A DNA stretch of 64,000 bases, taken from contig JAQTOP010000007.1 of NCBI GenBank assembly GCA_028713285.1, forward strand, positions 1 through 64,000, given 5' to 3'. This stretch comes from Terrimicrobiaceae bacterium (GTDB lineage: Bacteria; Verrucomicrobiota; Verrucomicrobiia; Chthoniobacterales; JAATET01). The position numbers and the translations under genes were made by a program. Below are positions 1,802-12,627 of this stretch, piece after piece (positions within the stretch are counted from its first letter, which is position 1; every line of letters begins with the position of its first letter). Below the pieces are notes generated by a model. That model was not told where the DNA came from, did not search any database, and saw nothing but the letters and a program-made list of their open reading frames with translations.

Positions 1802-3208
1802 TCAACGCCCGATCTTTCGCAGCGGCAGGCCCGAAAGCAGGTTCGATTCGATTTTTTCGAGCGACACGCCCTTCGTCTCCGGCACGAAGAGCAGGAAGAA
1901 GACGATGAACAGGACGTTGAGCGCGCCGTAGAGCAGGAATGTGTTGCCGTTGCCGAGCGTCATGAGCAGCGTGAGGAACGTCTGGCCGACGATGGCATTG
2001 GCCACCCAATTCGTCGCGGTGCTGAAGGTGACGCCGAGGTCGCGCCCGGCCAGCGGATAGACTTCCGAGCAGATCACCCAAATGATCGGGCCCGCGCTCA
2101 TCGCGAAGCCGATGATGAAAAGCAGCAGCGCGAACATGGCGGGGTAGCCCAGGCTGGGATCCTTCTCGACGCCGATGTTGAAAAGAATTCCGACCGTGAT
2201 CATGGCAGAGCCCATGACGACGAAGCCGGCATACATGATGGGCTTGCGCCCAAGGCGGTCCACGAACGCAATGGCGATGAACGTGGCCAGCACATTCGTC
2301 ACGCCGACGATGACCGTGCCCCACATTTGCTGGATCGTGGTTTCAAAACCCGCGATCTGAAAAATGCGCGGCGCGTAATACATGATGACGTTGATGCCGG
2401 TGAGCTGCTGGATGATTTGCAAGCCGACGCCGAGGCCGATGGCCCGCGCGAAATTCCGATTCGTGAGCAGCATCTGGAATCCGCTTTGCTTCACCAGGAG
2501 GCTGTCCTCGATCTCCTTCACCTCGGAGGCGATCTGCGCATCGTCGAGATGCATGCGCGTGAAGACCGCGATCCCGCGTTCCTTGAAGCCTTTTAGAAAC
2601 AGCCAGCGCGGACTTTCGGGCAGAAAGAGCACCCCCAGGAACATGACCGCGGCCGGGATCGCGATTACTCCAAGCATGATGCGCCAGTGGCCGCCGGTCA
2701 CTCCGCCGAAGGTCGCGTAGGACGCCAGCCAGGTGTCGCTCAGAAATGCGAGGACGATGCCGATCGTGATCATGAGCTGATACATCGAGATCATCGAACC
2801 GCGGATCACCTGCGGCGAAATTTCGGAAAGGTAAAGCGGCGCGGTGAACGACGCCACGCCCACGGCGATGCCCAGCAGGAATCGCGCGGCGATCAGCCAA
2901 TGCTCCGAATGTGCGAAGGCGCACAGCAGCGACCCGACGATAAAGATGATCGCGCTGATCAGAATGGTCTTCCGTCGTCCGAAGCGGCTCGAGAGAAAGC
3001 CGCTGATGAGCGTGCCGGCGACCGCGCCCCAAAGCAGCGCGCTGACGACATACTGGATGATGTCGTTGGAAATCTTGAATTCCGTCTGGATGAAACTCTG
3101 CGCTCCCGAGATGACCCCGACATCCAGGCCGAAAAGCAGGCCGGCAAGCGCCGCGGTGAAGCCGATGAAATAGACGATGAACTTCGGTTTTCTGACAGGG
3201 GGAGTCAT
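1802..3208 (-). CDS. sugar porter family MFS transporter
   Basis: FGLDVGVISGA, RFGRRK, PESPRWL, DRLGRKP, and PETKG motifs of the sugar porter family. Confidence 0.9.
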   Translation of the reverse strand: MTPPVRKPKFIVYFIGFTAALAGLLFGLDVGVISGAQSFIQTEFKISNDIIQYVVSALLWGAVAGTLISGFLSSRFGRRKTILISAIIFIVGSLLCAFAHSEHWLIAARFLLGIAVGVASFTAPLYLSEISPQVIRGSMISMYQLMITIGIVLAFLSDTWLASYATFGGVTGGHWRIMLGVIAIPAAVMFLGVLFLPESPRWLFLKGFKERGIAVFTRMHLDDAQIASEVKEIEDSLLVKQSGFQMLLTNRNFARAIGLGVGLQIIQQLTGINVIMYYAPRIFQIAGFETTIQQMWGTVIVGVTNVLATFIAIAFVDRLGRKPIMYAGFVVMGSAMITVGILFNIGVEKDPSLGYPAMFALLLFIIGFAMSAGPIIWVICSEVYPLAGRDLGVTFSTATNWVANAIVGQTFLTLLMTLGNGNTFLLYGALNVLFIVFFLLFVPETKGVSLEKIESNLLSGLPLRKIGR

Positions 3209-3279
3209 CCGCCTTGCATACATCCCGGCCCCGCGCAATCCAAGCATTCAAACGGCCGGGCGGCGCATCGCCTCCGCGA

Positions 3280-4458
3280 TCACCTGAACCAGTGGCCGGA
3301 AAAAATGAGGAAGCCGAAGCACACGCAGTTGAACGTGAGCGCCGTGCCGAGCGCGCGGCTCGTTCGCGTGTCGGCGAGCCAGCGGGCGGTTTTGTTCCAC
3401 CGCTTGAAGCGGTCGTGGATGACCTGCAGCACGCCATGGTAGAGGCCATAGACAATGAAATGCCGCTCGAGCCCATGCCACAAACCCATCGTCAGGAAGG
3501 TCACGAGCAGGCCCGAGTGGGTGGCATGCACCGGGTTCTTGATCCAGCCGCGTTTCGTGATCCAGAGGAAGTAGCGCATGAACACGAAGTCGCGCAGCCA
3601 GTGCGAGAGCGTGATGTGCCAGCGATTCCAGAAGGCCTGGATGTCCGGCGCGAGAAAGGGCAGTTGGAAATTTGGCGGCGTGCGAATGCCCAGCAGATAG
3701 CTGAAGGCGATGGCGAAGGCGCTATATCCCGCGAAGTCGAAGAACAAATAAAAACTATACGCGTAGGTGTAGGAAACCATCGGTCCAATGCCGGTGGCGG
3801 ATTCGGCCGGCAGCAACCATGCCTGATAAATCCAGGCTGCGAGGACGAACTTGTAAAGCAGCGCGGTGAAGAAGCAGGCCGCCGCGTGGTCCATGTCCCG
3901 CACGAATTGCCCCGCCGGCCGCGGCGCGTCCCAGTCCATTTCGAAGCGCCGGTAGCGGTCGATCGGACCCGACGAGATTGTGGGAAAGAACAACAGAAAC
4001 ATGAGGTAAACCGACGCGCGCAACTCACGCACCGTTCCCTCGTGGATGCACACCAGCGCATCAATCGCGCGGAAGCTCAGGTAGGAAATGCCGACGAAGC
4101 CGACGAGGCTGCCGCCGCCGTGCTCGGGCAGCAATTTCGCCAGCAGCAGCGGCGCGAGCGAGAGCAGCAGCGCGGCGGTGAGCCACTGCTTCGAGACGCC
4201 GCGGCGGCGAAGCGCCAGGTAGATCCGCGCGACCAAAAATTGCGCGGCGGCGAAGGCGCAGAGCGTCGCGAGCTCCTGCCAGAAAGGATCGCCGACCTTG
4301 CCGTTGACGGGCCACGCGTATTGGACGACGAGCATGATCGCCGTCGCGAGGGCGATCCATCCTTTCACCTTCCGGCCCATCAGGCCGAGGACGACCGAGG
4401 GTCCGACGACGATGGCAATGAGGATGCCGAGGTAAACGAAATCGGCATACGGGGCCAT
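3280..4458 (-). CDS. dltB: MBOAT O-acyltransferase, DltB (D-alanyl transfer)
   Basis: MBOAT signature (FFDFAGYSAFAIAFSYLLGI, FWNRWHITLSHWLRDFVF, GLWHGLERHFIVYGLYHG) adjacent to dltA/X/D/C. Confidence 0.88.
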   Translation of the reverse strand: MAPYADFVYLGILIAIVVGPSVVLGLMGRKVKGWIALATAIMLVVQYAWPVNGKVGDPFWQELATLCAFAAAQFLVARIYLALRRRGVSKQWLTAALLLSLAPLLLAKLLPEHGGGSLVGFVGISYLSFRAIDALVCIHEGTVRELRASVYLMFLLFFPTISSGPIDRYRRFEMDWDAPRPAGQFVRDMDHAAACFFTALLYKFVLAAWIYQAWLLPAESATGIGPMVSYTYAYSFYLFFDFAGYSAFAIAFSYLLGIRTPPNFQLPFLAPDIQAFWNRWHITLSHWLRDFVFMRYFLWITKRGWIKNPVHATHSGLLVTFLTMGLWHGLERHFIVYGLYHGVLQVIHDRFKRWNKTARWLADTRTSRALGTALTFNCVCFGFLIFSGHWFR

Positions 4459-4461
4459 GGC

Positions 4462-5955
4462 TCAGGCGCGGGCGGGGGTTTCGAGATCGGCCTGCAGCGC
4501 CTTGCGATCCGCCTTGCCATTGGCGTTCGTCGGGAATGCTTCGCGGAAGATCCACTTCTTCGGGATCATGTAGCCGGGCAGGCTCGAGGCGAGGTCCCGC
4601 CGCAACCGCTGGGAAAGCTCGAAATCGGATTCCCCGTTGCGGCCGGTCGCCAGCACGAAGGCCGCCATTCCCTCGACCTGTCCGTCTCGACGGAGCGGCA
4701 GCACCACGGCATTGCTCACACCCGCGAGCTGGCGGAGGTTCGCTTCGACGTCCTCAAGCTCGATGCGATGGCCGCCGATCTTCACCTGATGATCCATGCG
4801 ACCGTGGAAAAACAGCAGGCCGTCCCGCGCGCTTGCGAGATCGCCCGTCGCATAGCCGCGCAACCCGTCGATTTCGAAAAACCGCTCCGCCGTAAGGTCG
4901 GGCCGCCCGAGATAGCCCAAACCGACGCTCGGGCCGGCGATGAGCAGCTCCGCGCGCTCGCCATCCGCCACGGGCCGGCGATCCGGTCCGCCGGCATAGA
5001 CGCGCACGCCTGGCATCGCGCCGCCCAGCGGAACGGTCTCGTGGCGCGCAAGCAGCTCACGCGTCACACGGATCGAAGTCACCGCGACGGTGGCCTCCGT
5101 CGGGCCATAGGTGTTCCAGACTTCCGCGTCGGGAAAGCGGTCGAGCAATTGGCTGGCGAGCTGGTGCGGAAGCGCCTCGCCGCAAAATAGGAAGCGGCGC
5201 AGGCGCGGCAGGAGCGCCTGTTGGAGACGCGGTTCCGCGGCGCAGTAGGCGGCGAACGAGGGCGTGGAGACCCACACGGTGGGATTCGTCCTCTCGAGCA
5301 GCGCGAAGAGTTCCTTCGGCGCGGCGAGAATGTGCCGCGGAATGGAAACATGCCGCCCGCCCAGCAGCAGGGACGGGTAGAGATCCATCACCGACACATC
5401 GAATGTGAACGGCGTCTGGCCGAGAAACGTTTCGCACTCCGGCTCAAATCGTTGCTCGGCGATGAGCCAGTTCAAAAAGGAGAAGACGCATCGCCACGTG
5501 ATGACGACGCCCTTCGGCTCGCCCGTACTGCCGGACGTGAACAGGATGTAAAATGGATCGTCCAGCTCCGCCGGGCACGCCGTGGTCCTTTCGAGCGGGC
5601 CAATGGCGATCTCGCGAATTGCTGCGGGCGTCAATTCGGCCACGGGTTGCACTACCTGCCGGATGCGCTCCAGCCGCTCGGCGGGCAATTGATCGTCCAC
5701 CGGCACGTAAGCGCGCCCGGCCATTGCCGCGCCAAGAAAGCCGGCGAGCATTCCGGGCTCCTTGTGGCCGATCAGCAGAATCGGCGCCTTGCTTCCACCG
5801 GGCAGCGTGCGGAAATGCGCCGCCAGCCGCAGCGCCGTCGTCCACAGCGCGCCGCGCGTGATGGATTCCGCGCCGTTCGTGTAGGCGATCTCATCGGGGC
5901 TCCTTTTCGCGAAGGCCTCGATGCGGCCAAGAAAATCTGCGGGGGTCGTCAGCAT
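4462..5955 (-). CDS. dltA: D-alanine--carrier protein ligase (AMP-binding)
   Basis: Adenylation motifs FTSGSTGEPKGV, NTYGPTEATVAV, GYLGRPDLTAERFF, YATGD, NANGKADR; operon context. Confidence 0.88.
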   Translation of the reverse strand: MLTTPADFLGRIEAFAKRSPDEIAYTNGAESITRGALWTTALRLAAHFRTLPGGSKAPILLIGHKEPGMLAGFLGAAMAGRAYVPVDDQLPAERLERIRQVVQPVAELTPAAIREIAIGPLERTTACPAELDDPFYILFTSGSTGEPKGVVITWRCVFSFLNWLIAEQRFEPECETFLGQTPFTFDVSVMDLYPSLLLGGRHVSIPRHILAAPKELFALLERTNPTVWVSTPSFAAYCAAEPRLQQALLPRLRRFLFCGEALPHQLASQLLDRFPDAEVWNTYGPTEATVAVTSIRVTRELLARHETVPLGGAMPGVRVYAGGPDRRPVADGERAELLIAGPSVGLGYLGRPDLTAERFFEIDGLRGYATGDLASARDGLLFFHGRMDHQVKIGGHRIELEDVEANLRQLAGVSNAVVLPLRRDGQVEGMAAFVLATGRNGESDFELSQRLRRDLASSLPGYMIPKKWIFREAFPTNANGKADRKALQADLETPARA

Positions 5956-5959
5956 GGGC

Positions 5960-6106
5960 TCAGAACGCTTGATAGATGAAGGGCGGGGTCGTGTAGTTCC
6001 CGCGCGTCTGGAAATAAATCACGGCCAGGAGAATCGCCGCGTAGTAGAATAGCAGCGCGAGCAGCCGAAGGCGCGGATGTTTGATCTTCCACAACAAGGC
6101 GTGCAT
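5960..6106 (-). CDS. dltX: DltX, small membrane protein of the D-alanylation pathway
   Basis: 48-aa ORF MHALLWKIKHPRLRLLALLFYYAAILLAVIYFQTRGNYTTPPFIYQAF between dltD and dltA: one TM helix and C-terminal FIYxxF-type motif. Hidden in the ORF track as the tail of 5960..6961. Confidence 0.8.
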   Translation of the reverse strand: MHALLWKIKHPRLRLLALLFYYAAILLAVIYFQTRGNYTTPPFIYQAF

Positions 6107-6123
6107 GCGGAGCAGCGGGCGGT

Positions 6124-7344
6124 TCAGAGCGTCTTCCTCACGCTGCCGAGCCGGCCGTGGTAGAACGCGTCCGCGGCGCGATTGATGTAAATCCAGCCCT
6201 TGGGATTCGGATCCGCGAAACCAAAGAACTCGGGGTCTTCCTGGTGGCTTTTGAAATCCACAACGGGGAACCCGAATTTCTGCGCGAATTTGTGAACTTC
6301 GCCGTAGTAGTCCTGCCACGCAGTGGGCGAGGTTCCGAGCGCGCGGAAATAGCGGGCGTTGATCGGCGTGGAGACGATCAGCGGTTTCGCGCCGTATTGG
6401 TGGAGCACCGCGAGCATCAGGTCGTAGTCCTCCCATTCCTTGCTTGCACGCAGCCTTTGGACGAACTGCCGGTCGTTCGTCTTGTAGAGATAGGCCCGCG
6501 GCCTGCGCTCGACCTTTTTCCAGAGCGTCGAGCGGAATCCATACGGGTTGTCGCCCGACAATTGGCGGAATTCCTTCGCGCCATGGGCAAGGTCCCGCTG
6601 CCAGTCGATTTGCTCCGGCCTGGGGGCTGGCAGATCCACATGGAAGTGGCTGAGCGAGTGCTCGAATCCCACCCACGTGAAGACCGGATCGAGGACTCGC
6701 TGCACGCCAAGAAAACCGGTTGCCAGCCAGCTGACGACCGGTCGCACCGCATGGCGGGTCGGAGAGTCCTCGCAATTCACGGCGACGAATTGGGAAAGGA
6801 AGGCATTTTTCGCGAGACTGCCGGGATAGTCGGCCATGCGGCGCGCCAGCCGCTGTTTGATCGCCGGATCCAGATCGGGCGAAGCCAGCGCCGCCAGAGC
6901 GAGCTCGACGGAGAAATTTCCGTCGTAGGTCGGGACATTCGCCTCGGGGCGGAAAAACCATTCCGGCGTGAGGATCACGATGAGTCGTTTCCCGCGCAGG
7001 CGCTCGCCGAGCGCCGCAAATCGCTCCGCAATCAAGAGGGAGGTCACTCCACGGTCGCCGCTCGGGGCGACCCGAAAGCCGGTCGGCATCGAGGCGAAAA
7101 AGCGGTCGATGCGATTGTGCTGGGGATAGACCAGCTCGCAGCTTCCGTAAACGGGCAGGTAATCGCTGCGCTCCAAAACGCGTTCATCGGTCTCGAGTCC
7201 CAGCCGACTGGATTTCACATTCGCGAGCGCGAGCTGGTCGAAATGCCGGTCGAGCTTCGCCAGCGCATACGCCCGCACTCCGCCGATGACCGCGATGATA
7301 AAGAGAATGGCCGCGCAGGCAGCGAGCAGGCTGGGAGATTTCAC
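6124..7344 (-). CDS. dltD: DltD-like protein
   Basis: N-terminal TM anchor, YGSCELVYPQ, ILTPEWF; located between dltC and dltX. Confidence 0.82.
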   Translation of the reverse strand: MKSPSLLAACAAILFIIAVIGGVRAYALAKLDRHFDQLALANVKSSRLGLETDERVLERSDYLPVYGSCELVYPQHNRIDRFFASMPTGFRVAPSGDRGVTSLLIAERFAALGERLRGKRLIVILTPEWFFRPEANVPTYDGNFSVELALAALASPDLDPAIKQRLARRMADYPGSLAKNAFLSQFVAVNCEDSPTRHAVRPVVSWLATGFLGVQRVLDPVFTWVGFEHSLSHFHVDLPAPRPEQIDWQRDLAHGAKEFRQLSGDNPYGFRSTLWKKVERRPRAYLYKTNDRQFVQRLRASKEWEDYDLMLAVLHQYGAKPLIVSTPINARYFRALGTSPTAWQDYYGEVHKFAQKFGFPVVDFKSHQEDPEFFGFADPNPKGWIYINRAADAFYHGRLGSVRKTL

Positions 7345-7347
7345 CGA

Positions 7348-7587
7348 TCAAAGGCGGCTGCGGACATTTTCGACGATGTGTTGCGGCGTGTCCCAGGCCG
7401 CGGCGTCGAAATCCGTGAGGGGCACGTCCACCCCGCATTGCTGCGACACTCCCGCGAGCAACCGAACGATGCCGATGGAATCCAGCAGACCGCTGTCGAA
7501 GAGCGGCAGCGAGGGATTCCTGCGAACCTCGTCGGTTTGAACGATCTCTTCCAGCAACCCGAGCACGGTTCCTTCCACATCACACAT
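7348..7587 (-). CDS. dltC: D-alanyl carrier protein
   Basis: 79 aa; LFDSGLLDSIGIVRLL phosphopantetheine site and DFDAAAWDTPQHIVENV C-terminus. Confidence 0.85.
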   Translation of the reverse strand: MCDVEGTVLGLLEEIVQTDEVRRNPSLPLFDSGLLDSIGIVRLLAGVSQQCGVDVPLTDFDAAAWDTPQHIVENVRSRL

Positions 7588-7655: not shown

Positions 7656-8813
7656 TCAGGTCCCGAGCAAATCCGCGCAGACTTTCGCTGCGTCGAAATG
7701 CTTCCCGGCGAACGCCCGCGCCGCCGTCGAGTGCCGTTCGTAATCCCCCGCGACCGCCGCAATCCCGCGCACCGCGCCGTCGAGATCGTCAAAAGCCAGC
7801 GCGCCTTCCCCGGCGGGGAGGTGCTCGCTCCAGCCCGTATCCTGCACGACGACGGGCCTGCCCAGCGCGAGGTAGCAGGCGCTGCGGCAACTGAACCATC
7901 CGCTGCGCGACTTCACGTAGCCGTTTTTTGCGATGCTCCATTCGGCCTTCGAGTTCGCCAGGAAATCGTGATACGTCGCGTAGTCCGGCAGGTGGACATC
8001 GGGTTCGATGATCGTCCAGCCCGCATCGTTCAACCGCTCGGTGGGCCGGTTGCGCCCGATGCCCTGGCCCATCGCGAGCACGAAGCGCTCGTTCGTATGC
8101 CGCGGCAGATCGACGAACCGGAGAAACTCGATGTCCTTGTTGCCGTAGGCCTCGCCGGCGAATTCCTGCGGCTTGTAGCTCGCCCAATTCATCACCGTCG
8201 TCCACGCGTCGCGCGCGACGTGATGCGCGCTCGGGGGCAGCAAATTCCTGCGCCACCAGTCGATGGCGATCGGCTGCACGGTTGGTTTCCATGCGATGCC
8301 GGCCGTCGGCACCTTGCAGCCGACGCGACCGACATTGAGGCCAAAGGTGAAATGCTGTTGGTGCGCGAGCACGTGGTCGCGATGCCGGCCGGGCTCGGTG
8401 AGTCCGATGTGGGTGAACATCGGATCGCCATCGACGAAGAGCTTGCACGGCACCGCCGATGTGACGTCGCGCAGCCAGCACGCGCCGGAGACGTTCACCA
8501 GCACGTCCGCCTCGCGGATCACGCGATCCGCATCGTCACCGGCAGGACCATGGTATTTGCCATCCGCCTCGTTGCGGTAGATCCACCGGTCGCCGAGGTC
8601 GAACTCGTGCATCACGCGCTCGAGGTAATTCACGTTATACGAGCAATCCGCCGACGGCTCCTCCTTGATCGGATCGTAGGCCCACGTTGCCGTGTCCTCG
8701 AGATACCAGACATCGTGGCCGAGTGCGCGGAAACCGAGGACGTATTGCAGGTAATCCCACGTCACGCCGCCGAAGGCGTATTGGCCGATGAGGCCCGTCA
8801 CGAGAATGCGCAT
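7656..8813 (-). CDS. glycosyltransferase-like protein (paralogue of the 8857-10038 product)
   Basis: GT-B-like MRILVTGLIGQYAFGGVTWDYLQYVLGFRALGHDVWYLED; C-terminal AEWSIAKNGYVKSRSGWFSCRSACYLALGRPVVVQDTG. Confidence 0.6.
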   Translation of the reverse strand: MRILVTGLIGQYAFGGVTWDYLQYVLGFRALGHDVWYLEDTATWAYDPIKEEPSADCSYNVNYLERVMHEFDLGDRWIYRNEADGKYHGPAGDDADRVIREADVLVNVSGACWLRDVTSAVPCKLFVDGDPMFTHIGLTEPGRHRDHVLAHQQHFTFGLNVGRVGCKVPTAGIAWKPTVQPIAIDWWRRNLLPPSAHHVARDAWTTVMNWASYKPQEFAGEAYGNKDIEFLRFVDLPRHTNERFVLAMGQGIGRNRPTERLNDAGWTIIEPDVHLPDYATYHDFLANSKAEWSIAKNGYVKSRSGWFSCRSACYLALGRPVVVQDTGWSEHLPAGEGALAFDDLDGAVRGIAAVAGDYERHSTAARAFAGKHFDAAKVCADLLGT

Positions 8814-8856
8814 CGCCGCAATCTACCCGGCGGCGGGCCGCGCGTCGATTTTGGAA

Positions 8857-10038
8857 ATGACGCCGCGGGTTCCTTCCCGCAAGCTCCGCAGCGTGTCCGG
8901 AAAAATCGTCATCGGCGTCGGCATCGCCTCGCACCCCATCTCCGCCGCCGGCAACACGTGGAACTCGCTCAACTGGGCGCTCGGCTTTCGCGATCTCGGC
9001 TGGGATGTCTGGATCACCGAGGCCATCGACGCCGACCGCTGCATCGACGCCGCATGGAGATCCGCGCCGGCCGAAACGAGTGTCAACGTCGCCTATTGGC
9101 GGGAGATCGTCGGCAAATTCGACCTGCAGGATCGGGCCACCCTGCTCATCGGTGGCGCCGCGCCCGGTCTGGATCGATTCCGCGATTTCTGCGCCGAAGC
9201 CGATTTGTTTTTGAACCTTTCCGGCCACTTCAAGAGCGATGCCGTGACCTTCCCGCGCGCTTTGAAAATCTACCAGGACGGCGATCCCGCGTTCACGCAA
9301 GTCTGGGCCGAAAGCTACGGCGTGGACATGAACTTCGCCGCGCACGACCGCTTCGTGACGGCCGGTTTGCGGCTCGGCCAGCCGGACACGTTCGCCCCGA
9401 CTTGCGGCATCGACTGGATTCCGACCTTCCCGCCGGTGGTGCTTGAATACTGGCCCTACGCGCCGCAGGAGGCCTTCGACCGCTTCACGAGTATCGCGCA
9501 TTGGGAGGGTTGCAAGAGCAGCGAGTGGCGCGGCGAATGGTTCCACGGCAAGCGCGAGGAGTTTGAAAAATTCACAGACGTGCCGCGCGCGGTTTCCCGC
9601 CCCATCGAGCTGGCGATGCACGTGCGCGACCACGCCGCCGAGCTGGGGCCCTTCCGCGAAGGCGGCTGGCGCTTTACCGAGGCCGGACCGATCTGCAGCA
9701 CGATCGAGGCCCACGGCGAATATATCCGCGGCTCGGCGGCGGAGTTCAGCATCGCCAAGGGCGGCTACGTGCTGTCCCGCGCAGGCTGGTTCAGCGACCG
9801 CGCCGTCTGCTACGCGGCTTCCGGGAAGCCGTTGGTCTCGCAGGATACGGGCGTGGGCGATTTGCTGCCGGTCGGCGAGGGCTTCCATCCCTTTCAAACG
9901 CCCGCCGAGGCCATCGCCGCCTGCGAGCGGGTGATCGCCGACTTTCCCGCGCAACAACGCGCCGCCCGCGCCCTGGCCGAGGAATATTTCGACAGCCGGA
10001 AAGTGCTCGCGCGGCTGATCGACCGGCTGAACTTCTAG
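8857..10038 (+). CDS. glycosyltransferase-like protein (paralogue of the 7656-8813 product)
   Basis: AEFSIAKGGYVLSRAGWFSDRAVCYAASGKPLVSQDTG matches the neighbour's C-terminus closely. Confidence 0.6.
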   Translation: MTPRVPSRKLRSVSGKIVIGVGIASHPISAAGNTWNSLNWALGFRDLGWDVWITEAIDADRCIDAAWRSAPAETSVNVAYWREIVGKFDLQDRATLLIGGAAPGLDRFRDFCAEADLFLNLSGHFKSDAVTFPRALKIYQDGDPAFTQVWAESYGVDMNFAAHDRFVTAGLRLGQPDTFAPTCGIDWIPTFPPVVLEYWPYAPQEAFDRFTSIAHWEGCKSSEWRGEWFHGKREEFEKFTDVPRAVSRPIELAMHVRDHAAELGPFREGGWRFTEAGPICSTIEAHGEYIRGSAAEFSIAKGGYVLSRAGWFSDRAVCYAASGKPLVSQDTGVGDLLPVGEGFHPFQTPAEAIAACERVIADFPAQQRAARALAEEYFDSRKVLARLIDRLNF

Positions 10039-10547: not shown

Positions 10548-11680
10548 TGCGCGGCGAGATTACCATCCGCCGGCAGGGCGTCGAGCACCGCCCGCGCAGC
10601 CCGCCCGCTCGCGCCCGCGCCCTCGAGCATCGCCACGCCGTCCGCCAGCTCCGCCGCGAGGCGCGCGCGAGCTTCGGCGTCGTTCAGCAGGCGCAGGGCC
10701 TCGTCGGCGAGCGCGCCGGGTGTCGCGGCATCCTGGATGAATTCGCGCACGACCGTTCGCCCGGCGAGAAGGTTGACGATGCCGAGGTGCTTCACCCTCA
10801 CGAGCCGACGGCCGACCTCGTAGGTGAGCCACGCCGTTTTATAGACGAGCGCATGCGGCAGGCCGAAGCACGCCGCCTCGAGCGTGGCCGTGCCCGAGCA
10901 GACGATGCCGGCTCCGGCCCGCTGCATCAGCCCGTGCGCGCCTCCGGCATGAATCTCGATCGGCACGCCGCGCGCCATTTCGCGCATCGTCGCGGCATGC
11001 GCCTCGCTCGCGGCGGCGGATTCGAATCGCACGTCGGGCCGCGATTCCGCCACGCGCCGCGCCGCGCCCACCATCGCCGGAAAAATTCGCTTCACTTCGC
11101 GTTCGCGGCTGCCGGGGAACAGCCCGAGCAGCAGCGGATCGCGCGCGACCGGCAGGCGATCCCTCGCCATCTGCTCGACGATGGGATGGCCGACGAACTC
11201 CGTGCGCAGGCCCGACTGTTCGTAGAGTGGTTTTTCGAACGGGAAGATGCAAAGCATGAGGTCGAGCCACCCGGCCATCTTCGGGATGCGCGCGCGGTTC
11301 CACGCCCAAACCTGCGGGCTGACGTAATAGAGGATTTGCAGACCGGGCTGCCGCGCGCGCAGCGCTTTCGCAAGGCGCAGATTGAAGCCCGGGTAATCGA
11401 CGAGCAGCACGGCGTCGGGACGCAGCCGGGCGATGTCGGCGAGCATGCGATCGAACTTCGCGCGGAAGTAGCCGTAGTGTTTCAGCACGTCCCACAGGCC
11501 CAGCACGCCGGCCTCGGCGATCCATTCATCGAACGGCTCCGCCGCGAGGGGACGCATCGCCGGACCGCCGGCGCCCGCGAATTCGACCGACGGATCGAGT
11601 TTGCGCAGCGCGCGCATCAGCTCGGCGGCGCGCGCATCCCCGCTCGCCTCGCCGGCGACGATCCAGATTTTCCGGGTCAC
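10544..11680 (-). CDS. lpxB: lipid-A-disaccharide synthase
   Basis: VTRKIWIVAGEASGDARAAELMRAL, PQVWAWNRARIPKM, FPFEKPLYE; GTG start at 11680 overlapping the upstream stop. Confidence 0.93.
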   Translation of the reverse strand: MTRKIWIVAGEASGDARAAELMRALRKLDPSVEFAGAGGPAMRPLAAEPFDEWIAEAGVLGLWDVLKHYGYFRAKFDRMLADIARLRPDAVLLVDYPGFNLRLAKALRARQPGLQILYYVSPQVWAWNRARIPKMAGWLDLMLCIFPFEKPLYEQSGLRTEFVGHPIVEQMARDRLPVARDPLLLGLFPGSREREVKRIFPAMVGAARRVAESRPDVRFESAAASEAHAATMREMARGVPIEIHAGGAHGLMQRAGAGIVCSGTATLEAACFGLPHALVYKTAWLTYEVGRRLVRVKHLGIVNLLAGRTVVREFIQDAATPGALADEALRLLNDAEARARLAAELADGVAMLEGAGASGRAARAVLDALPADGNLAAQ

Positions 11681-12627
11681 GGCGGCGCCGGCAGCGATTG
11701 TTTCCTTGGATCCGCCGCCTCGATCCGGCGCGTGATTTCCAGTGCGATCTCGAGCGCGACCGCGCCCTCCCGCCCGGATACGCGCGGCTGCAAGCCGTTC
11801 CGCGCGCAATCGAGGAAGGACGTAAGCTGATTGCGCAGCGCGTCGCCTTTTTGCACCTCGACCTTTTCGCGGCTGATCTTTCCGTTCTCGAGTCGATACA
11901 TCACGCCGGCCTGATTCTGGTAATCGAGCGAGAGGTAAGCGTTCTCTTGAAAGACGCGGATCTTTCGCAGTTTGTCGCTGCTGATTCGGCTGGCGGTCAC
12001 GTTCGCGACGCAGCCATTTTCGAAGCGGAAGCGGACGTTCGCGATGTCCTCGCCCTTGCTCAGCACCGAGATGCCGACGGGATCCATGCTCTGGATGGGC
12101 GAGCGGACGAGATGCAGGATGATCTCGATGTCGTGGATCATCAGGTCGAGCACGACACCGATGTCCGTGCTGCGATTGGGGTAGGGCGAGAGTCGCGTGA
12201 CCTCCAGGAAGCGCGGATTCTCGAGCTTCGCTTCGAGGGCGGCGAGCGCGGGATTGAAACGCTCGATGTGGCCCACCTGCAGCACGCAGCCGTGCTCGTG
12301 TGCGAGGCGCGCCAGCTCGTGGGCATCGGCGGCGTTTTCGGCGATCGGCTTCTCGACGAGCAGGTGCCTGCCGTGAGCGAGGAGGAATTTGCCGATCTCG
12401 AAGTGCGTGGATGTCGGCGTGCAGACCGTTGCGGCATCGACCCGCGCGGCGAAGTCCTCGAGGGATGCCGCCGCGGGCACGCGGAATTTTTTGGACGCGG
12501 CCCGGGCGGCTGCGGGATCCGCATCGTAAACCGCCGTCAATTCGCTATCCGGCAGCTCCGAGTAGGCGCGCACGTGATGCATGCCCATGTGCCCGGCGCC
12601 GACGACTCCCGTGCGAATCCTGCTCAT
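11677..12627 (-). CDS. Gfo/Idh/MocA family oxidoreductase
   Basis: GVVGAGHMGMHHVRAY Rossmann motif, EKPIAENAADAHEL. Confidence 0.9.
   Translation of the reverse strand: MSRIRTGVVGAGHMGMHHVRAYSELPDSELTAVYDADPAAARAASKKFRVPAAASLEDFAARVDAATVCTPTSTHFEIGKFLLAHGRHLLVEKPIAENAADAHELARLAHEHGCVLQVGHIERFNPALAALEAKLENPRFLEVTRLSPYPNRSTDIGVVLDLMIHDIEIILHLVRSPIQSMDPVGISVLSKGEDIANVRFRFENGCVANVTASRISSDKLRKIRVFQENAYLSLDYQNQAGVMYRLENGKISREKVEVQKGDALRNQLTSFLDCARNGLQPRVSGREGAVALEIALEITRRIEAADPRKQSLPAPP

Follow-up and report, generated by a model that had tools for sequence, protein, structure and literature searches.

The 64,000-nucleotide stretch of Terrimicrobiaceae DNA that we analyzed (the window) carries five consecutive open reading frames (ORFs) on the minus strand (7587-3280) that make up a dlt cassette in the order dltC-dltD-dltX-dltA-dltB, with intergenic gaps of 3 to 17 bp (Table 1). 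The DltD encoded by this cassette is a maintained and, in a structure prediction, folded member of its family in which the active site has been replaced. From sequence comparisons we think it probable that these genes transfer D-alanyl groups to a diderm envelope by way of a rewired terminal step. The window is located on contig C140 of genome G000 (3.5 Mb, 98% complete), which we place in the same order as Chthoniobacter (Verrucomicrobiota). A first-pass annotation of this DNA had listed all five Dlt components on one strand in this order, and the ORFs together with their family and structure matches bear this out. It missed the replacement of the DltD active site and the presence of another dlt operon in this genome, and it did not mention that dlt genes had already been published for Gram-negative bacteria (PMC3544676, PMC5541007).

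DltD from S. pneumoniae contains a Ser-His-Asp triad that is reported to be conserved in Gram-positive orthologues (PMC4792211). Comparison of the window DltD with solved DltD structures showed that Cys69 occupies the position of the Ser in the GSSE motif and Asp378 the position of the His that precedes KGW or RGW. The acid Asp of the triad, a generally less conserved position, is also lost, in a shortened loop. The protein scored 151 bits against PF04914 (cut-off 22.7) and 132 bits against TIGR04092, which is under the cut-off of 150. By sequence family and fold it is a DltD, and it lacks the Ser-His-Asp triad.

The Ser and the His were invariant in all 72 other DltDs of our first survey. A wider survey covering Bacillota, Chloroflexota and the window's order found Ser at every readable nucleophile position and His in all untruncated proteins. 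Full-length DltDs added from further phyla all had the Ser, with the His motif captured for only part of them. The combination of Cys and Asp was found only in the window DltD and in its orthologue L099 from the congener G390. These two proteins are ~67% identical, and L099 sits in the same pyrE-to-glycosyltransferase neighborhood as the window cassette. Of the DltD alignment columns, 13 are near-invariant, and the two proteins depart from the consensus in exactly two of these, Ser to Cys and His to Asp. Sequencing error was considered as the source of these residues and rejected because a second species, at this level of DltD identity, carries both.

The ratio of nonsynonymous to synonymous substitution (dN/dS) between the window and L099 operons was 0.20 for dltD, 0.25 for dltA, 0.16 for dltB, 0.12 for dltC and 0.22 for dltX, which argues that the operon is not decaying. 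An AlphaFold2 (AF2) model of the window DltD built from an alignment of 33 DltDs had a predicted local distance difference test score (pLDDT) of 91.6 and a predicted template modeling score (pTM) of 0.91; an earlier model from a two-row alignment (pLDDT 48) was discarded. When this model was used as a query in Foldseek, the best match was the DltD structure 6o93 with a template modeling (TM) score of 0.72-0.74. It is the substitution ratios, the predicted fold and the comparison at Cys69 and Asp378, taken together, that lead us to describe the protein as maintained, folded and altered at its active site.

Judged from their sequences, DltA, DltB, DltC and DltX retain the known functional residues. 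DltB, a membrane-bound O-acyltransferase (MBOAT), scored 407 bits in a profile search with TIGR04091 (cut-off 375), and alignment to 6bug identified His281 and His328 as the active-site His pair. DltC scored 74 bits against TIGR01688 (cut-off 52) and 75 bits against NF003464 (cut-off 68). DltA scored 500 bits against NF003417 (cut-off 476) and 495 bits against the stricter TIGR01734, under its cut-off of 560; the residues that contact D-Ala in L. plantarum DltA, Asp198 and Cys270 (7r27; PMC9338922), correspond to its Asp186 and Cys258. DltX reached 16 bits against PF12459, under the cut-off of 25, and its identity is backed by its position and by a C-terminal FIYQAF, which fits the FXYXXF acyl-shuttle motif defined for DltX (PMC12148441). 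Aligned with other non-Bacillota DltX proteins, it keeps the shuttle motif and differs at three near-invariant positions in the membrane segment. Matches to solved structures were obtained for DltA, DltB, DltC and DltD. Near-invariant columns deviate in the window or L099 proteins at 4 of 79 positions in DltA and 4 of 59 in DltB, and most of these changes are conservative or occur in one species only. An alanine racemase family match is present in the window's genome.

We assessed the content of the host genome family by family. LpxB is encoded in the window at 11809-10544 (225 bits, cut-off 190) and LpxC on two other contigs, in agreement with the first-pass view of a complete Dlt set in a Gram-negative-type genome. 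That annotation had listed both lpxB and lpxI in the window; lpxB stands, and the lpxI-like gene at 13436-12624 (134 bits, under the cut-off of 400) is a likely lpxI. No match to a TagB/TagF-type polymerase (PF04464) was found in the host genome (98% complete), in which LtaS-type enzymes were not searched for. The presence of LpxB and LpxC and the lack of a PF04464 match suggest that the host is likely a diderm that makes lipid A and lacks the usual polymerase for wall teichoic acid. A gene at 11677-12627, between lpxB and the lpxI-like gene, encodes an oxidoreductase resembling UDP-GlcNAc 3-dehydrogenase (213 bits, under the cut-off); such an enzyme would be consistent with lipid A built on a diamino sugar.

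In the published scheme, the D-alanyl group on DltX is picked up by the Ser-His-Asp site of DltD, which then transfers it to the polymer. For the window system, the conservation of Asp186 and Cys258 suggests that DltA would activate D-alanine and load it onto DltC. DltB would then pass the D-alanyl group across the membrane, with Tyr45 of DltX as the recipient, if the retained residues act as in the mechanism published for Gram-positive bacteria. With Cys69 and Asp378 in place and the acid Asp lost, the terminal step could not be the Ser-His-Asp one. The absence of the catalytic Ser and His from this DltD, a change that a related species shares, suggests that the final step is probably different. 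The window DltD would most likely serve a structural role or present the acceptor, or else be a transferase whose chemistry is different and depends on a Cys, and the D-alanyl group would reach an envelope acceptor directly from DltX or by way of the altered DltD. Tentatively, and with somewhat less than even confidence, we suggest a dlt lineage that does without DltD Ser-His-Asp chemistry and transfers D-alanine to a diderm acceptor by a Cys-dependent or DltD-catalysis-free step. Peptide resistance is a plausible function if Dickeya is taken as a guide: its dltB mutant is sensitive to polymyxin and survives more poorly (PMC3544676).

The genome of the window contains a second complete C-D-X-A-B operon (L010, 5061-9548 on contig C116) with a canonical DltD that has both GSSE and the His. 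This operon is located between ilvB and priA, beside a beta-lactamase-like gene, and has an orthologue (L100) in the congener G391. The window and L010 proteins are 47% identical in DltB, 49% in DltA and 30% in DltD, and the two operons fall on separate branches in both DltB and DltD trees, although the window branch is long and its position deeper in the tree is unsure. A recent duplication giving rise to the two operons is therefore unsupported. The dlt cassette is patchy within the genus. The congener G316 has no dlt genes; in its genome the glycosyltransferase gene and the major facilitator superfamily (MFS) transporter gene are adjacent, marking the empty site of the window cassette, and ilvB and priA, the flanks of the C116 region, are ~70 bp apart. 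Because the flanking genes of each cassette adjoin in G316, each operon appears to have been acquired or deleted as one whole block. A search for direct repeats at the cassette ends returned only an 8-mer of chance length. In G390 the ilvB site, which is home to the canonical operon in G000 and G391, carries a different gene, predicted to encode a 357-amino-acid SGNH-like membrane protein with GDSRSE and DGSHP motifs (L245:4796-5869, contig C55). The presence of this SGNH-like protein raises the possibility that genes for envelope acylation have a hot spot at the ilvB site.

Several points weigh against a rewired terminal step. Both the assignment of D-alanine as the substrate and the role given to DltX are taken from homology, another residue could take the place of the catalytic His in space, and the canonical L010 DltD in the same genome could supply the chemistry in trans. 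In its fullest form this last idea makes the variant DltD a pure pseudoenzyme, with the L010 DltD performing the final transfer for both operons. A protein in which the Ser, the His and the acid Asp have all gone is typical of pseudoenzymes, and the second operon provides a complete set with an intact DltD. However, G390 keeps the variant operon, and searches of its genome found no canonical DltD and no DltB or DltD beyond those of that operon; the genome is 84% complete, so that the assembly might have missed a canonical DltD. The ilvB site there holds a different gene. Since G390 appears to be without a canonical DltD, we favor an adaptor DltD or one with altered chemistry over supply in trans, which we consider rather unlikely. 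Within the favored reading, the variant DltD could be an active Cys transferase that forms a D-alanine thioester on Cys69 and possibly passes it to an amine acceptor. In both species the nucleophile position has become fixed as Cys, which is not a random choice of residue, and thioesters favor transfer to amines, but the usual His base is absent from its position, activation of the Cys by a nearby Asp is not expected, and we found no precedent among DltDs. We regard this specific form as doubtful.

An ordinary Gram-negative dlt operon, in which the active-site changes are neutral or the operon is decaying, would agree with the patchy presence of the cassette in the genus. This explanation is very improbable given that all five genes are intact with dN/dS values of 0.12-0.25 and that in both species the changes fall precisely on the two catalytic columns. 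The first-pass annotation had named an alginate acetylation-type MBOAT system as the result that would overturn a Dlt assignment. Alginate- and PatAB-type loci also pair an MBOAT protein, as DltB, with an SGNH protein, as DltD. However, those systems use acyl-CoA and have no carrier protein, amino-acid ligase or separate DltX (PMC12148441). Because all three of these are present in the window and DltB exceeds its equivalog cut-off, we reject an acetylation locus of this type as next to impossible, and the Dlt reading stands.

In a phylum-wide sample, PF04914 exceeded its cut-off in one case out of 390, and DltD was almost absent from that sample outside the host's order; the class was also searched. 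The extreme rarity that this sample implied was corrected by a search at the level of the order, which found DltD in 56 of 214 genomes; in the host family, represented here by a single genus, three of the four genomes have it. The first-pass annotation had proposed a neighborhood survey and had contrasted the window with a Firmicutes order of X-A-B-C-D. Our survey of gene order (80 + ~70 loci) found X-A-B-C-D in the Firmicutes loci and D-C-X-A-B, sometimes with two dltD genes, in most loci of the host's order. C-D-X-A-B was found in Chloroflexota, in the window genus and in one other member of the host's order. Thus, the C-D-X-A-B order also occurs in other phyla. Some genomes contain four to seven DltD genes, as in G459 (L131, L132, L154, L171) and G594 (L196, L204, L212, L215-L217), and many of these are located away from dltABC. 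Tandem dltD genes occur elsewhere (L138, L142, L145, L147), and two Anaerolineales operons (L021, L028) have a second dltA directly after dltB.

Upstream of dltC in the window is a divergent paralogous pair of glycosyltransferase-like genes (7656-10038) with no good family match that is present in four of four genus members. A functional link between this pair and dlt was rejected, as the pair also occurs in G316, which has no dlt.

Table 1. The dlt cassette of the window, its altered DltD codons and the adjoining genes.
Feature	Position	Strand	Description
dltC	7348..7587	-	79-amino-acid D-alanyl carrier protein; phosphopantetheine (Ppant) site in DSIG; TIGR01688, NF003464; PDB 1dv5 E 2e-16
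dltD variant	6124..7344	-	406 amino acids, GTG start, SGNH/DltD fold; PF04914, AF2, Foldseek
Cys69 codon TGC	7138..7140	-	Ser nucleophile position; GSCE where others have GxSE
Asp378 codon GAT	6211..6213	-	Catalytic His position; ADPNPKGW where others have xHxxxKGW
dltX	5960..6106	-	48-amino-acid membrane microprotein; C-terminal FIYQAF (FXYXXF acyl-shuttle motif, Tyr45)
dltA	4462..5955	-	497-amino-acid D-alanine--DltC ligase; NF003417; alignment to 7r27, 3dhv
dltB	3280..4458	-	392-amino-acid MBOAT; TIGR04091; PDB 6bug and 8jem E 1e-66
Glycosyltransferase-like gene	7656..8813	-	Upstream of dltC; neighbor, outside the Dlt system
Sugar-porter MFS transporter	1802..3247	-	Downstream of dltB; TIGR00879 over cut-off

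A recent model of envelope acylation describes a relay from MBOAT to acyl-tyrosine to an SGNH triad. A conserved operon that keeps all but the triad offers a direct test of whether the triad is essential and of a non-catalytic role of DltD. If the terminal step is indeed Cys-dependent or free of DltD catalysis, it would be a second way to finish transmembrane D-alanylation. Because the order-wide survey shows Dlt to be common in an order of diderms, what Gram-negative bacteria D-alanylate becomes a question that reaches beyond Dickeya and Bordetella. Neither the order-wide occurrence of Dlt in a diderm order nor a DltD without the Ser and His was found in the open-licence literature that we searched.

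Compared with the dltXABCD operon of Firmicutes, which D-alanylates teichoic acid, the window cassette has all five proteins, the FXYXXF motif, the DltA Cys and Asp, the DltB His pair and the DltC Ppant serine. It differs in its C-D-X-A-B order, in a DltD without the triad Ser and His, and in its diderm host, in which no TagB/TagF-type gene was found. It resembles the dlt genes of Dickeya and Pectobacterium and the dra locus of Bordetella, the latter as cited in PMC4448142, in being a Dlt system in a host with lipopolysaccharide. Dickeya differs in having a dltBAC operon and a separate gene called "dltD (or pbpG)" (PMC3544676), a distinction drawn from the published description. A Dickeya dltD mutant remains resistant according to a secondary citation (PMC5541007). 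As this gene is also named pbpG, it may not be a PF04914 DltD and we give the mutant result little weight. L010 and its orthologue L100 have the same C-D-X-A-B order as the window operon, but differ in the normal Ser and His of DltD, in their insertion site between ilvB and priA, and in their separate tree branch. The C-D-X-A-B operons of Chloroflexota and the D-C-X-A-B operons of Chthoniobacterales are likewise Dlt sets outside the classical Firmicutes layout, yet their DltD keeps Ser and His. The PatA/PatB system for peptidoglycan O-acetylation has a comparable relay from MBOAT to acyl-Tyr to SGNH protein, but it uses acetyl-CoA as the donor, has the shuttle motif fused to the MBOAT protein, and has no carrier protein (PMC12148441).

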